This document shows positions 6,341-11,806 of a DNA stretch of 61,459 nt, piece after piece; position 1 is the stretch's first letter, and every line of letters begins with the position of its first letter. The stretch lies in the NCBI GenBank assembly GCA_902561155.1, contig CACEOY010000007.1:1-61459 (forward strand). Direction: 5' to 3'. The DNA is from an uncultured Pelagibacteraceae bacterium. Lineage in GTDB: Bacteria; Pseudomonadota; Alphaproteobacteria; Pelagibacterales; Pelagibacteraceae. The position numbers and the translations under genes were made by a program. The notes under the pieces are model-generated. The model was not told the origin of the DNA and did no database searches. It saw only the letters and a list, made by a program, of their open reading frames with translations.

Positions 6341-7602
6341 TTTTTGTTTAAGACGTTTCCGCATTGATAGAGAGAACCAAATATACATATAACTTTTCTT
6401 TCTTTATTTGATATTTTTTTAAGAACACTATCAAAGTTTTTTATCGATAGTGCATCTATTTTATTTTTTTTTGCTATCTTTTCTAAAACTTTTGGAGATA
6501 AAGAATTTTTTTCTCCAATGATTGGGACAGTGTAAATCTTTTTGAACACTCCTTTGAACTGTTTTATAAAATTCGAAGGATCTTTATTTTTCATCATAGA
6601 CCAAATTCCATATTTGGGTATCTTTATAGACTTTAAATAATTAGACAAATTCTTTCCACTAATTTCAGAATGACAACCATCTATCAAAAGCTTCTCTTTA
6701 GGATAAAGTTTTTTTATTAATTTACCAGTAGTAATATATTGAATTCTCCCTTCAAACTTTAATTTTGGTAATGCTTTAGAGATTACTTTTTTACTTATAC
6801 CTATATCTAATGCAATCTTTATTGCCAATGTAATGTTGCTAAATAATCCTTTAGAATAAATATTTCTTGTTTTTAATGGAATAAAATTTTTTCTATCCTT
6901 ATAAAAAAAATTTTTCTTTTTTTTGATTAATTTCCATTCATTAGAATAAATTTTTCTACTTAGGTTTCTTTTTAAAATTGACTTAATTTTTTTTTCGTTT
7001 GCTAGCCTTTGTTTACCAACATATATTTGAGTAAAATTACTTAAAAATCCTACCTTTTGAAGAATAATTTCACTAATTGTTTTTTTCTTAACAAAATTTA
7101 AATGTTGTTTATTTATGTTCACCACAGCCTGAATTAGAGGAAAATCAAAAACATTTGTTGAATCTTTGGCAAATAATGCTCCTGCCTCTATAAGATTATA
7201 ATCGTTGTTATATTTTGATGCGTTTAAAATAAAAACTAAAGTGAGAACTTCAAAAATTGTTAATTGAATTTTCAATTTTTCAATTTCATTAATTGTTTTT
7301 TTTATTTCATTGTGGGAAAGATAATTATTTCCCATCCAAAATCTTTCTCTAATGTCTTTCAAGCTAGGAGAAATATATGCCGCAGAAGTTTGCTTATTCT
7401 CTTCTATAAAATATTTTAATGTGTTTAAAACGGAATATTTTCCATCGGATCCAATTATATTAATTACATTTTTTAATTTTTTTTCTGGGTTTCCAAGTTT
7501 ATTAAGTGCTGTCTTAATTCTTTTAAGATTAAAGTTAACAGTCTTTTTAAATTGTTTTTTTTTAGCTAGCAGATTGTAGAGACTTATCGATTGTGATGAC
7601 AT
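6337..7602 (-). CDS. folC: Folylpolyglutamate synthase / dihydrofolate synthase
   Basis: A 421-aa Mur-ligase-family enzyme that ligates glutamate to (dihydro)folate. It shows the N-terminal ATP-binding region, SPSLKDIRERFWMG (the substrate-binding SPHL..xxER.. block) and the C-terminal PDGCHSEISG-like region (LLIDGCHSEISG). The P-loop, normally GTNGKGS, reads GSDGKYS at residues 51-57, with the Lys kept. The gene starts 41 nt inside accD in another frame and is the last of the minus-strand run. Placement next to accD and trxA is the standard alphaproteobacterial order. The family call is firm; catalytic competence with the altered P-loop is unproven. Confidence 0.85.
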   Translation of the reverse strand: MSSQSISLYNLLAKKKQFKKTVNFNLKRIKTALNKLGNPEKKLKNVINIIGSDGKYSVLNTLKYFIEENKQTSAAYISPSLKDIRERFWMGNNYLSHNEIKKTINEIEKLKIQLTIFEVLTLVFILNASKYNNDYNLIEAGALFAKDSTNVFDFPLIQAVVNINKQHLNFVKKKTISEIILQKVGFLSNFTQIYVGKQRLANEKKIKSILKRNLSRKIYSNEWKLIKKKKNFFYKDRKNFIPLKTRNIYSKGLFSNITLAIKIALDIGISKKVISKALPKLKFEGRIQYITTGKLIKKLYPKEKLLIDGCHSEISGKNLSNYLKSIKIPKYGIWSMMKNKDPSNFIKQFKGVFKKIYTVPIIGEKNSLSPKVLEKIAKKNKIDALSIKNFDSVLKKISNKERKVICIFGSLYQCGNVLNKN

Positions 7603-8482
7603 TTGTAGTCTCTTTTTTAGCTTGAGTCTCTGACTTTTTCAACATAACACTTAGCAAGGTTCCTATTGTCGAATTTAGGTATTTTCTCTCGACTACTAGA
7701 TCTATCCCTCCGTGATCTTTCACGTACTCTGCAGTTTGAAACTCTTCAGGTAAAGTTTCCCTTACAGTGTCTTGAATTACTCTTCGTCCAGCAAATCCTA
7801 TTGTAGCTTTTGGTTCTGCTATCAAAATATCACCCAGCATTCCCCAAGAAGCTGTCACTCCTCCTGTTGTAGGATCTGTTAATACCACAATGTATGGTAG
7901 ATTATTTTTTTTTAACTCATTTATAGCGAGTGTAGTTCTAGTCATTTGCATTAATGCAATCGATGACTCCATCATTCTTTGACCACCACTACAACTAAAA
8001 AAAACAAGAGGAGTTTTATTATTTATCGCGTGTTGAACACCAGTTATAAAAGCCTCTCCCGAAGCTGCTCCGAAAGATCCACCAATGAATCTAAAATCTT
8101 GGGCACCCGCAGTGACGTCAATATTTTTTACCTTGCCTTTTGCAATTAAAATAGCATCATTCTGACCAGTCTTTTTTCTAGCATCACGTAATCTATCTTT
8201 ATATTTCTTATTATCTACAAATTGCAAAGGATCATCAATAGGAAGAGGCGTGTCTATTATTTCGAACTCCCCTTTATCAAAAAATAATTTAAATCTGTCT
8301 TTACATGAAAGTTTATGGTGAGCTCCACATTTTGTACAACAATAAAAATTTGATTTAAAATCTTCTTTGTAAATTAAATTTTTACATTCACAAGAAATCC
8401 AAAGAGTTTCTTCTGAATAAGAAGTTTTCTTTTTAAATAATGACTTAATTTTTGGTTTAATAAACTTAGTTATCCAGTTCAT
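7562..8482 (-). CDS. accD: Acetyl-CoA carboxylase carboxyltransferase subunit beta
   Basis: A 306-aa protein with the N-terminal four-cysteine zinc ribbon (CEC near residue 31 and CTKCG near 50) and the crotonase-fold carboxyltransferase core: GGSFGAASGEAFI, SGGQRMMES, TDPTTGGVTASW and GFAGRRVI. It transfers CO2 from carboxybiotin to acetyl-CoA together with AccA, which is encoded separately at 32.7 kb. The ATG overlaps the trpA stop by 4 nt. The trpA-accD-folC linkage is conserved in Alphaproteobacteria. Confidence 0.95.
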   Translation of the reverse strand: MNWITKFIKPKIKSLFKKKTSYSEETLWISCECKNLIYKEDFKSNFYCCTKCGAHHKLSCKDRFKLFFDKGEFEIIDTPLPIDDPLQFVDNKKYKDRLRDARKKTGQNDAILIAKGKVKNIDVTAGAQDFRFIGGSFGAASGEAFITGVQHAINNKTPLVFFSCSGGQRMMESSIALMQMTRTTLAINELKKNNLPYIVVLTDPTTGGVTASWGMLGDILIAEPKATIGFAGRRVIQDTVRETLPEEFQTAEYVKDHGGIDLVVERKYLNSTIGTLLSVMLKKSETQAKKETTNVITIDKSLQSAS

Positions 8483-9279
8483 ATAATTTTCTTTTTCAAC
8501 TTATATACCATTTTATTCAGTACTTTGGCAGTATTTAGGCGTTTTTTTATAGAATTCGTTATAGTTTTACATAATTGACTGCCAACTACAAGCCCATCAG
8601 CTTTTTTTAGAGCAGATACAGTTTTATCAGTAATACCAAATCCTATAACTATATTTTTACTACGATTAATACTTTTTATTTTGTTATAATTTTGAAGAAT
8701 TTTTTTGGGAGAAACTTTAAGCTTTCCACCGGTAGTTGATAGCATAGAAATATAATAAATCATGCTATGCGAGTCTCTTATAATTTTTTTCATTCTATCA
8801 TCTGATGTAGTAGGAGAGATTAGCTGAATAAAGTCAATAGATTTTTTTTTACATTTTGTTGCGAATTTTTTATTTTCTGGATATGGAAGGTCAACTATGA
8901 TGAGACCATCAACACCAGAATCTTTACAGTTTTTTAAAAAAATGTTTTCACCACTTTGATAAATTAAATTAAAATATCCCATTAAAATTAAAGGCTTATC
9001 AGGATTAGAATTTTTAAATTTCTTTACGATTTGAAAAACATCCTTTAGTTTTATCCCATTTTTTAAAGCTCTATGAGAACTTTCTTGAATTTGTCCACCA
9101 TCAGCAATTGGCGTGTTGTGTGGAAAACCAAGTTCTAGAATATCTGCATTTTTCGAAATAGCATTTAATATTTTAAGTGAATTATTTTTAGTATTGTCTC
9201 CTGCAACTGTATAAGTGAGCAAAGCTGCTCTTTTCTCCCTTTTACAATTTATAAAAGTTCTAGCAATATTAGAATTCAT
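8479..9279 (-). CDS. trpA: Tryptophan synthase alpha chain
   Basis: A 266-aa TIM-barrel protein that releases indole from indole-3-glycerol phosphate. The catalytic residues are in place: Glu in LELGFP and Asp in PIADGGQIQ. Other family blocks are LMGYFN, GLIIVDLPYPE, LISPTTSDDRM, YYISMLSTTGGK and the phosphate-binding GFGITDK and DGLVVGS. It overlaps trpB and accD by 4 nt each. Unlike TrpB next to it, this subunit looks catalytically ordinary. Confidence 0.95.
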   Translation of the reverse strand: MNSNIARTFINCKREKRAALLTYTVAGDNTKNNSLKILNAISKNADILELGFPHNTPIADGGQIQESSHRALKNGIKLKDVFQIVKKFKNSNPDKPLILMGYFNLIYQSGENIFLKNCKDSGVDGLIIVDLPYPENKKFATKCKKKSIDFIQLISPTTSDDRMKKIIRDSHSMIYYISMLSTTGGKLKVSPKKILQNYNKIKSINRSKNIVIGFGITDKTVSALKKADGLVVGSQLCKTITNSIKKRLNTAKVLNKMVYKLKKKII

Positions 9280-10502
9280 CTTTGATACGACCCTAATTTT
9301 TGCTTAATAATATCTTTATCTTTAATGCTATCTCCACAAGAATTTACAACTATAATTTCTGATGATTTCAATTTAGGAGCAAGTCGGATCGCCTCGTGAA
9401 ACGCATGGGATGGTTCTAAAGAGGGAGATATGTTTTCTAATTCAGAAACCAATTGATAAGCTTTTAATGCTTCCTCATCATTTGCAGATGTATATCTTGC
9501 TCTTTTTGCATCTTTTAAAAAACAATGCAAAGGTGATATTCCAGGATAATCTAAACCAGCAGAAATAGACTCTGTCGATCCTATTTGCCCCTCTTTGTTT
9601 TGAATAACATATTGCGCGGCTCCGTGTAAAATTCCAATTTTTGATCCGTTTGTTAATGGAGCGGCATGAAGATTACTATTTTTTGGGCCGCCAGCTTCAA
9701 CACCAACGAACTCAGCATCTGTATCCATAAATTCGTTCCAAAATCCTATTGCTGAACTTCCGCCGCCCACACAATTAAGAAGCTTTATTTTTCTTGGAAT
9801 TTTTCCAAATTCCTCCTTAACTTGGTTATAAAGTTCTCTAGATATCTGAGCGGTGCTCCATGCACAAATTTTAATGAATATGTTTGGACCAACTGTTGAA
9901 CCTACACACATGTGTGTAGTATCGCAATTGGAAACCCAATACCTCATACATTCGCTGACTGCATCCACTAAAGTTTGACTTCCAGTTGTTACAGGCACAA
10001 TTGTTGCTCCATTTTTTTTTATTGCTTCAACATTTGGCCTTTGTCTTTTAATGTCTTTTGCACCCATAAAAATTTTGCATTTAAGACCAAATTTTTTAGC
10101 TGCCATAGACAACATTTTTCCGGCGTATCCTGCTCCTGTGTCACCTACTATAAATTTTTTCCCTGCCTTTTTTGCGATAAGACAGTGCACTGTAGCATTA
10201 TATATTTTATGGGCTCCACCATTAGCTTCAGATACTACTTTTGCATAAATTTGGGCGCCTTTGAGATAATCTGTTAGATTTTCTAATTTAATAAATGGAG
10301 TGGGCGAACCAACATATGATTTAAAATATTTATCTCTTTCTTTTAAGAATTTTTTGTCTTTTCTTAATTTTGCAAATAGTTTTGTAAGATCATCTATTGG
10401 TTTTTTAAGTGTTTCTGGTACAAAATTCCCACCAAATTTCCCGCCATACATGAAATTTTTATCATGTTGGTCTATAAGCAATTTACCTTTTTTAATTTTC
10501 AT
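9276..10502 (-). CDS. trpB: Tryptophan synthase beta chain, divergent active site
   Basis: A 408-aa fold-type II PLP enzyme; it should join indole and serine. The TrpB scaffold is clear: FGGNFVPETL, YVGSPTPF, GAHKI with Schiff-base Lys K99, RQRPNVEAIK, GGGSSAIGF, SISAGLDYPG and LEPSHA. Several normally invariant positions differ. The KRED-LNHT stretch is replaced by KVVSEANG. The catalytic Glu (E109 in Salmonella) is D121, Q114 is Y126, H115 is A127, GPHP is GPNI, and the PLP-nitrogen ligand S377 is C389. Offsets between the two numberings are constant, which supports the alignment. It sits between trpF and trpA, so a role with TrpA is likely, but altered chemistry cannot be excluded. Confidence 0.85.
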   Translation of the reverse strand: MKIKKGKLLIDQHDKNFMYGGKFGGNFVPETLKKPIDDLTKLFAKLRKDKKFLKERDKYFKSYVGSPTPFIKLENLTDYLKGAQIYAKVVSEANGGAHKIYNATVHCLIAKKAGKKFIVGDTGAGYAGKMLSMAAKKFGLKCKIFMGAKDIKRQRPNVEAIKKNGATIVPVTTGSQTLVDAVSECMRYWVSNCDTTHMCVGSTVGPNIFIKICAWSTAQISRELYNQVKEEFGKIPRKIKLLNCVGGGSSAIGFWNEFMDTDAEFVGVEAGGPKNSNLHAAPLTNGSKIGILHGAAQYVIQNKEGQIGSTESISAGLDYPGISPLHCFLKDAKRARYTSANDEEALKAYQLVSELENISPSLEPSHAFHEAIRLAPKLKSSEIIVVNSCGDSIKDKDIIKQKLGSYQR

Positions 10503-11109
10503 TATTAATTTTTTTTAAACACTTTACAAATTCTATTATCTTTTGAGTATCTTTTACTTTATTTGTTTCCAAAGCACCAGAGACATCGATGATATCAGCT
10601 AATTTTGATAAATTACCTAATTTATCTTTTGTTATATTGCCTGCTATCATTTTTTCTCCTTTAATTTGGATATCTTTAATCCAACTATGTTTCCAGCTTA
10701 AACTTTTTTCATATCCTGAACTATCCCACAGAATAATATCTGAAGCATCCTCTAGGTTTTTGTAGATTTCAATATCACTTTTACTTTTTACTTGTATTGT
10801 GGCTATAACTTTTTTTTTAAATTCATCTTTTATACTTTTTAAAGACTTATTATCGTACTGACCATATAATTGAAAATAATCTAAATTAAGTTGAGAAAAT
10901 TTTTTTAACTCTTCTAAACTTGGCTGCACCAAAACGCCAACGAATTGAGTATTATTTTTATTTATACTTAAAAGATTTTTGGCTTTTTCATATGAGATAT
11001 ACCTATGACTTTTAGGATAATTCAAAATAAACCCACAAAAATTTACATTATTATTTATGCAAATTTCAACTTCATTAGGATTTGATAGTCCACAAACTTT
11101 TAATTTCAT
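10492..11109 (-). CDS. trpF: Phosphoribosylanthranilate isomerase
   Basis: A 205-aa TIM-barrel enzyme of tryptophan synthesis. The general base Cys is in KVCG (C6), YPKSHRYIS matches the SPRYVS block, FQLYG matches LQLHG, and the general acid Asp is in LWD (D129). The loop after it, usually GGTGKxFDW, is GYEKSLSW, so the glycines are lost. The C-terminal phosphate site reads AGNIT and DVSGALETN. It overlaps trpB by 11 nt and lies 4 nt after pyrF. Identity is well supported by motif order and by context. Confidence 0.88.
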   Translation of the reverse strand: MKLKVCGLSNPNEVEICINNNVNFCGFILNYPKSHRYISYEKAKNLLSINKNNTQFVGVLVQPSLEELKKFSQLNLDYFQLYGQYDNKSLKSIKDEFKKKVIATIQVKSKSDIEIYKNLEDASDIILWDSSGYEKSLSWKHSWIKDIQIKGEKMIAGNITKDKLGNLSKLADIIDVSGALETNKVKDTQKIIEFVKCLKKINNEN

Positions 11110-11113
11110 TAGT

Positions 11114-11806
11114 TTAGTTTAATGATTTTATTAATTTTTTGATATTATTTTTTATATTTCCATTAACCAAACTTCTTCCCATCACGATTGATGTTGCGCC
11201 ACTTTTGAAAGCTTCTTCTGGTGACATTACTCTTTTTTGGTCGTTTGAATTTTCACTTTTAAATCTTATTCCCGGAGTGATAATTTCCATTTTTTTACAA
11301 ACCTTTTTAATAAATTTTATTTCTTGAGCCGAACAAACTATTCCATCTAATTTAGCAGCTTTTGCAAGTAATGCCTGCTTTCGAACTAAATCTTTAATGG
11401 ATTTTGTATGACCCACTTTTTTAATTGAAGAATTAGAAAAACTTGTAAGTACTGTCACACCTAAAATTTTTAATTTTTTATTATATTTTTTTGTTGTTCT
11501 TTTTATAGCTTTTAGCATTTGAAGACCTCCGCTCACATGAACAGTAATGTAAGAAATATTTTTTAAATCTTTAAGTGATTTTATAACAGCGGAACTTGTA
11601 TTTGGTATGTCAAAAATTTTTACATCTAACCATATGTTTTTTACTTTTAATTTTTCTATGAACTTTCTTCCGCTTTTTGAGTAAAAGAACTCTAACCCAA
11701 ATTTATAACCAATTTTGTAATTTTTGGATTTGATCTTTGAATTTTTGATAATTTTTTTTACTACTTGATTACTACTTGTATCGCACGCAATAAAAATGTT
11801 TTTCAT
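11114..11806 (-). CDS. pyrF: Orotidine 5'-phosphate decarboxylase
   Basis: A 230-aa protein of the final UMP-forming step. The catalytic Asp-Lys-Asp array is seen in LDVKIFDIPNT. FIACDTS marks the first strand, GIVCSAQE the substrate loop, and ITPGIRF plus GATSIVMGRSLV the phosphate-binding end. It lies between ihfB and trpF with 2-4 nt gaps. Confidence 0.93.
   Translation of the reverse strand: MKNIFIACDTSSNQVVKKIIKNSKIKSKNYKIGYKFGLEFFYSKSGRKFIEKLKVKNIWLDVKIFDIPNTSSAVIKSLKDLKNISYITVHVSGGLQMLKAIKRTTKKYNKKLKILGVTVLTSFSNSSIKKVGHTKSIKDLVRKQALLAKAAKLDGIVCSAQEIKFIKKVCKKMEIITPGIRFKSENSNDQKRVMSPEEAFKSGATSIVMGRSLVNGNIKNNIKKLIKSLN

Follow-up and report, generated by a model that had tools for sequence, protein, structure and literature searches.

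Aspartate in place of Glu109 in the tryptophan synthase beta subunit of a SAR11 bacterium, and a candidate programmed frameshift in the same gene of its relatives

Introduction

Bacteria of the SAR11 group are among the most abundant cells of the ocean, and the Glu109 site of the tryptophan synthase beta subunit, TrpB, is a key handle for enzyme engineers. The locus described here raises a question on both: does a beta subunit that has aspartate in place of Glu109 still make tryptophan? The gene concerned is the trpB of an uncultured Pelagibacteraceae bacterium, on contig CACEOY010000007.1 of assembly GCA_902561155.1, of which a stretch of 61,459 nucleotides (from here on, the window) was analysed as a whole; the genome is a draft assembly of 967 kb in 20 contigs, 83% complete. 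In the Salmonella enzyme, Glu109 is hydrogen-bonded to N1 of indole and stabilises the transition state in which the C-C bond is formed, and it is described as essential to indole activation (PMC9512447).

From its sequence, its relatives and its predicted structure, the window gene probably encodes a working beta subunit with Asp in place of Glu. Regarding the wider picture, we lean towards a joint reading in which the SAR11 tryptophan synthase has been rebuilt, with Asp for Glu109 and with an alpha-beta signalling contact abandoned by both subunits, and in which 14 of the 169 genomes of the genus, that of the window not being among them, would translate trpB only by a programmed +1 frameshift after the Asp-Thr codons; this shift would be prfB-like with an Arg slow codon, and would lie in a sharply bounded segment of ~50 nucleotides that has moved between trpB backgrounds.

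The active site of the type A beta subunit

A first reading of the window from its letters (the sequence-only reading) had placed Asp121, Ala127 and Cys389 of this protein at the positions of Glu109, His115 and Ser377, with an offset of +12 anchored on the Schiff-base lysine (Lys87, here Lys99). This offset holds against E. coli TrpB at all four sites, and a corrected alignment does not bring back the canonical residues at 109 and 115. The two motifs that had been noted as altered are indeed so: positions 76-83 read KVVSEANG, versus KREDLLHG in E. coli and KRDELNHT in controls from the same class, and the GPHP motif at positions 193-196 has become GPNI. As for the third substitution, Cys389 does align with Ser377, but it is not unusual: Cys occupies this position in 30/30 class controls, and in a phylum sample that partly overlaps them 18 of the 27 genomes of the same class have Cys and nine have Ser, while the 11 others all have Ser. 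Cys389 was therefore rejected as a special feature, because it is ordinary in alphaproteobacterial TrpB, and with it went the proposed novelty of a cysteine as in serine dehydratase; the window protein does not show, through this residue, a departure from TrpB towards a serine dehydratase-type site for its cofactor, pyridoxal phosphate (PLP). Position 109 is a different matter, with Glu in 30/30 class controls and in 38/38 proteins of the partly overlapping phylum sample.

The substitution is shared by other SAR11 bacteria. A similarity search gave the motif GDTGAGYAGK in 80/80 loci (the best 80 of 509 relatives), and the relatives with public names among the matches are Pelagibacteraceae, including Candidatus Pelagibacter ubique HIMB058. 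An alignment was built from 158 full-length loci, and type A was defined in it by the motif GDTGAG[YM]AGK, with 113 rows that correspond to 96 distinct proteins, the window being included twice; 31 type A rows were left at <90% identity. A108G, E109D and H115A occur in 113/113 of these rows; since the motif itself defines the type, the unbiased frequency is the 80/80 of the search. Further changes, which the sequence-only reading had not listed, are A108G itself, Q114Y or M, K167V or I, Y186M, N236S and R379D in TrpB and the coupled ones in TrpA; the segments 77-83 and 193-198 are likewise altered across the type A rows.

The 30 controls have 137 invariant positions; at least 95% of type A departs from the control residue at 54 of them and retains it at 70. 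The retained positions include K87, H86, T110-G113, R141, N145, GGGS at 232-235, D305 (in 111/113 rows), E350, C377, G378 and K382-D383. The changes are not enriched in the COMM domain, with 16 of 40 invariant positions changed within 102-189 and 38 of 97 elsewhere. In the structural description of PMC9512447, the indole subsite lies between Phe306 and His115, Gln114 is bonded to Asn145 and Arg148, and the closed state is stabilised by the Arg141-Asp305 pair. Given these roles, type A alters the acid of the indole subsite as well as the wall that faces it, and keeps the aminoacrylate machinery together with the R141-D305 bridge.

Family membership and fold

The window protein matches PF00291, has the TrpB fold and is encoded next to trpA, so that it belongs to the TrpB family in the wide sense. 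Of the traits of canonical TrpB1, it has the Schiff-base Lys87, the GGGS phosphate site and the TGAG carboxylate loop, and it lacks both Glu109 and a TIGR00263 score above the curated cut-off. Its score for TrpB2 (TIGR01415) was 98.0 bits, versus a cut-off of 518.85. By these strict tests the protein is a divergent clade of the TrpB family, not a canonical TrpB1. It aligns to solved TrpB structures across almost its full length, and its AlphaFold2 model (mean pLDDT, the predicted local distance difference test score, of 94.6) superposes on Pyrococcus furiosus TrpB with a Z of 65.1 and a root-mean-square deviation of 1.0 over 383 residues. As a side observation, a few Pelagibacterales genomes (loci L117, L176 and L177) have a second, TrpB2-like gene besides trpB, which in L117 carries ETGAGQWG.

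Distribution and exchange of trpBA pairs

A TrpB match was found in 37 of 41 relatives, the window's own genome counted, and in 235 of 247 genomes of the order, six of the latter being weak matches to other PALP enzymes only; the assignment to types covers the retrieved loci, which are a subset of this 247-genome survey. Outside the order, in 289 genomes of the class, none of the matches listed exceeded 46% identity. Nine of ten draft genomes without TrpB also lack TrpA, and because all ten are drafts the locus may simply be absent from the assembly.

Within the order, the same operon slot is also occupied by other types: type B (ESGAGQH) in seven loci, type D (ETGAGAH) in three, and type C (ETGAF or ETGAS) in three, one of them in the window's genus. 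All three types retain Glu109. In genus g6 of the same order, the seven type B loci compared with a type A locus are 49-73% identical in pyrF and 54-61% in trpF, and fall to 33-36% in trpB and 28-31% in trpA; two type A loci of this genus are 73, 75, 91 and 79% identical in pyrF, trpF, trpB and trpA, respectively. As trpF and pyrF stay native while the identity of trpB and trpA falls, trpBA has been swapped as a pair. That pairs with Glu109 take the slot of type A suggests functional equivalence, and type A is most simply read as doing the same job.

Family f2 of the same order has the type A motif in some loci and a canonical TrpB in three. The trpB of the f2 loci (L019-L031) is 67-68% identical to that of the window, but their accD, pyrF and trpF are only ~24-46% identical, barely above other Alphaproteobacteria; type A trpB may therefore also have moved between SAR11 families. 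A second lineage with Asp109 and Ala115, named A' (L152 and L113), is 54-55% identical to the window. The divergent trpBA pairs of types B, C and D, which differ in their active-site loops, stand at L116, L160-L168, L115, L158 and L159.

As for the source of these genes, the best of the matches listed in samples of 299 Pseudomonadota genomes reached 51% identity for type B and 38% for type C, which gives no source beyond SAR11, and type A had no relatives in viral contigs. A phage or plasmid origin of type A was considered and rejected: 21 phage and 128 plasmid records match, each at <60% identity.

The TrpA partner and the alpha-beta contact

The alpha subunits encoded beside type A keep E49, D60 and T183 in 108/108 rows (92 distinct). 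Position 56 of TrpA varies with the type: it is Asp in 30/30 controls, types B and D have Glu there, and types A, A' and C have Thr, Ala or Cys. At position 167 of TrpB the controls share Lys with types B and D, and types A, A' and C have Val, Ile or Leu. The pair formed by these two positions goes by the name of the alphaD56-betaK167 salt bridge. From the aligned residues, both sides allow this contact or both lack it, in every type.

Types A and A' form one clade in quick trees of both TrpB and TrpA, with a Shimodaira-Hasegawa-like approximate likelihood ratio test (SH-aLRT) support of 100 in each; its stem measures 2.05 (TrpB) and 1.45 (TrpA) changes per column, values that come from quick trees with long-branch warnings. 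The clades of the types agree between the TrpA and TrpB trees. It was also observed that the TrpA partners of A' (L152, L113) do not cluster with each other; each joins the type A TrpA of its family.

Function of the type A subunit

The window trpB is unbroken, and the gene order trpF-trpB-trpA proposed by the sequence-only reading is intact, with overlapping genes (Table 1). A PF00291 search of the assembled genome returned only this trpB and a cysteine synthase-like PALP gene, so that no normal trpB was met elsewhere in the assembly. The trpC gene was found in 27/27 genomes tested, including the window's own, and trpD adjoins trpC. Finally, type A trpB is under purifying selection, with ratios of nonsynonymous to synonymous substitution rates (dN/dS) of 0.042 in the first part and 0.035 in the second among 25 intact genes of the genus, dS being saturated in 83 and 19 of 300 pairs, respectively.

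We infer the chemistry as follows. TrpB, the organism's only detected tryptophan synthase beta subunit, would bind PLP via Lys99 and form the aminoacrylate from serine via the usual T-G-A-G carboxylate loop, the GGGS phosphate site and the E350/G378 neighbourhood. Asp121 would replace Glu109 in stabilising the charge of indole N1 while the C-C bond forms. With the His115 side chain gone from its place opposite position 306, and with A108G and the changes at 77-83 and 193-198, the indole subsite would be remodelled around the shorter acid. The alpha partner, with E49, D60 and T183 in place, would still cleave indole-glycerol phosphate; since both subunits have lost the D56-K167 contact, alpha-beta coupling would have to use other contacts.

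Some points weigh against a working subunit. The TIGR00263 score of the window protein, 387.8 bits, lies 4.7 below the curated cut-off of 392.45 (a type A protein of the same order passes with 405.3, and an A' protein has 379.8). The assembly, being 83% complete, could miss a second trpB; neither trpE nor trpG turned up in the window genome, where the contig ends ~430 bases past trpD. In six drafts with an intact type A trpB (L090, L097, L103, L107, L118 and L119), trpF is missing both between pyrF and trpB and in the rest of the genome, and the isomerase step may have been lost or be done by another enzyme. In addition, the Salmonella E109D mutant of Brzovic (1992) reportedly lost beta activity ~27-fold and preferred indoline over indole.

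This altered nucleophile preference is also what lends some weight to a shifted substrate, in which the aminoacrylate would be joined to a nucleophile other than indole, or another amino-acid donor would be used; the residues that line or activate indole (E109 and H115), and also Q114, Y186 and H195, have been changed and then frozen. Yet the TrpA active site is whole in every type A row, so that indole should still arrive, the assembled genome has no other trpB and retains trpC and trpD, and the slot is interchangeable with Glu109-type pairs in relatives; a shifted substrate is hence unlikely. Still less credible is a weak or dead subunit that mainly activates TrpA, with tryptophan imported or made by an unfound enzyme: the catalytic Glu is replaced, trpF is missing in some relatives and some drafts have no trpBA at all, but the residues of PLP chemistry are kept, dN/dS is low, and the contact that was lost, D56-K167, is the very one that links the subunits. 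Moreover, in the eight loci of the order flagged with a stop, the TAA is the terminal stop in all eight. An artefact of alignment or sequencing can be ruled out, as the same motif is found in all 80 public loci of the search and in family f2, and the model is confident with a good structural superposition; nothing was found in its favour.

A working subunit with Asp for Glu109 thus stands as the preferred reading. The sequence-only reading had offered either a re-engineered site, with Asp as the base and Cys as in serine dehydratase, or a shifted substrate. Its Asp half is the better supported, by the single copy as assembled, the operon, a catalytic TrpA, purifying selection and replacement by Glu109 pairs; its Cys half gained no support as a novelty, and no positive evidence emerged for the shifted substrate, though the nucleophile preference may have changed.

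A +1 frameshift in relatives of the genus

Three of the 41 relatives (G004, G007 and G009) have trpB as two overlapping pieces. A pattern search, in which the extra A and GGC GC were fixed and up to two mismatches allowed, was run over 169 genomes of the genus and found the same frameshift sequence in 14 of them (L232-L245), all drafts 59-86% complete; over 397 genomes of the order it returned two matches, both from the window's genus, and none outside it. In 14/14 the break lies directly past the Asp-Thr codons (109-110): GTG GGG GAT ACC is followed by an extra base (A in 13/14, C in 1/14) and by GGC in the +1 frame, after which the protein continues with GAGYAGKM, while the zero frame reaches a stop 6 to 18 codons past the site. 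The 14 relatives share a conserved shift site like that of prfB, with a run similar to a Shine-Dalgarno (SD) sequence, a spacing of 3 nucleotides, a slow codon and a C; the slow codon is AGG or CGG, used 3.2 and 0.16 times per thousand codons in the long open reading frames of the window.

The pattern left the third bases of GTG, GGG, GAT and ACC open (GTG lies outside it), and yet these bases are invariant in 14/14, with linked upstream codons that vary synonymously; among 57 intact relatives, GTG occurs in two, GGG in five and ACC in six. In a quick tree built from the downstream part, the alleles fail to group as a single clade; nine changes are needed, but the tree has many weak forks and its well-supported branches force only two. 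The likeness is local: in a 60-nucleotide interval over the site, frameshift alleles share an identity of 0.898 with one another and of 0.648 with intact alleles, while in the other intervals these identities are at most 0.05 apart, and the positions associated with the frameshift at p<1e-5 lie between -36 and +17 of the site, except one at +118. The association tests, like those on codons of the downstream half, cover 13 of the 14 loci, one with a longer C-terminal half having been left out. Close pairs keep both halves of the gene, with 14 synonymous and no other differences between L232 and L237, and 54 synonymous and eight other between L235 and L245; in eight hand-chosen frameshift pairs, the first half has dN/dS values of 0 to 0.10 and the second half values of 0 to 0.08. 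The preservation of both halves in close pairs favours a translated, recoded gene. No other trpB was found in the three of the 14 frameshift genomes that were checked.

In conclusion, this inherited frameshift is a candidate for a programmed one, and the segment of ~50 nucleotides around it, scattered over trpB backgrounds, may be a cassette that is mobile or co-converted. Two exact patterns found no match in viral contigs as a donor of the segment, and folding of three of the 14 loci (z of -0.63, -0.35 and +1.58) gave no support for a downstream RNA structure as stimulator. If translated, the expected junction peptides are EIVGDTGAGYAGK and QIVGDTGAGYAGK.

It should be noted that several facts speak against a programmed event or limit that reading. 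The site is absent from all 14 genus members with a completeness of at least 90% and from the 151 such genomes of the order; part of its invariance is selected, because the pattern fixed the extra A and GGC GC; by reasoning, the move of the P-site pairing from ACC to CCA would re-pair poorly, so the site is not obviously slippery, unlike CTTT; and most of the dN/dS of the frameshift alleles partly predates the frameshift, because the alleles recombine. Furthermore, in genome G266 (L153/L175) the trpB frame breaks at residues 262-264, and in G180 (L260), a genome of one contig, trpA and trpC are in pieces with trpB whole, neither of which could be told apart from assembly error; errors or decay do, for this reason, occur in these data.

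Features of the locus

The genes of the operon, its conserved neighbours and the codons discussed above are collected in Table 1.

Table 1. Genes and codons of the trp locus in the window (positions are those of the window; residue numbers in brackets follow canonical TrpB or TrpA).
Feature	Position	Strand	Remarks
trpB, type A	9276..10502	minus	divergent tryptophan synthase beta subunit, 408 aa; from ORF, PF00291, TIGR00263, structure alignments, model
trpA	8479..9279	minus	partner alpha subunit; E49, D60, T183 kept, Thr at position 56
trpF	10492..11109	minus	phosphoribosylanthranilate isomerase, overlapping trpB start
pyrF	11114..11806	minus	conserved neighbour upstream of the trp genes
accD	7562..8482	minus	conserved neighbour downstream
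TrpB codons 89-95	10218..10238	minus	VVSEANG, before GAHK motif; REDLLHG in E. coli, RDELNHT in class controls
TrpB K99 (Lys87)	10206..10208	minus	Schiff-base lysine, conserved
TrpB D121 (Glu109)	10140..10142	minus	catalytic position
TrpB A127 (His115)	10122..10124	minus	wall of indole subsite
TrpB V179 (Lys167)	9966..9968	minus	lost intersubunit contact
TrpB C389 (377)	9336..9338	minus	PLP-nitrogen ligand; Cys ordinary in class
TrpA T56 (Asp56)	9112..9114	minus	Asp in canonical TrpA

Comparison with known systems

SAR11 trpB has been described as a distinct cluster, trpB_1, with strain HTCC1062 having one copy and both trp operons, and was judged functional (Kagan 2008, PMC2395257). From the identity range of that work and the gene order, we infer that the TrpB of HTCC1062 is type A. 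The trpB section of the same paper does not deal with active-site residues, the TrpA co-change, trpBA exchange or a frameshift. In the open PMC literature, E109D tryptophan synthase gave no match, tryptophan synthase with programmed frameshift gave, by listing, a yeast pseudogene paper only, and frameshifting with SAR11 gave, by listing, nothing relevant; trpB and tryptophan are unmentioned in the main text of two frameshift surveys (PMC3711429, PMC10885494). The cluster is already known; neither the coupled changes nor the trpBA exchange nor the frameshift turned up in the open PMC literature, which is a limited set.

Compared with canonical TrpB1 of Salmonella and E. coli, type A is alike in its fold, PLP lysine, TGAG and GGGS motifs, R141-D305 pair, E350 and operon with trpA, and differs in E109D, H115A, A108G, Q114Y, K167V, N236S, R379D and the segments 77-83 and 193-198. 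The laboratory E109D mutant of Salmonella has the same change of Glu to Asp; it is a single mutation in an unadapted protein, whereas in type A the Asp is fixed along with some 50 other changes. A natural Asp version, and divergent trpBA pairs in one slot of one order, make a test set for the rebuilding of an active site and of alpha-beta signalling.

The frameshift site of the 14 relatives resembles the programmed +1 site of prfB, as described in PMC12421855, in its succession of a G-rich SD-like run, 3 nucleotides, a slip codon, a slow codon and a C. It differs in that the slow codon is Arg AGG or CGG and not a stop, the gene is trpB, and it was found in these relatives and not in the window. 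If this frameshift is indeed programmed, the genes of bacteria that depend on recoding would come to include that of a core biosynthetic enzyme.

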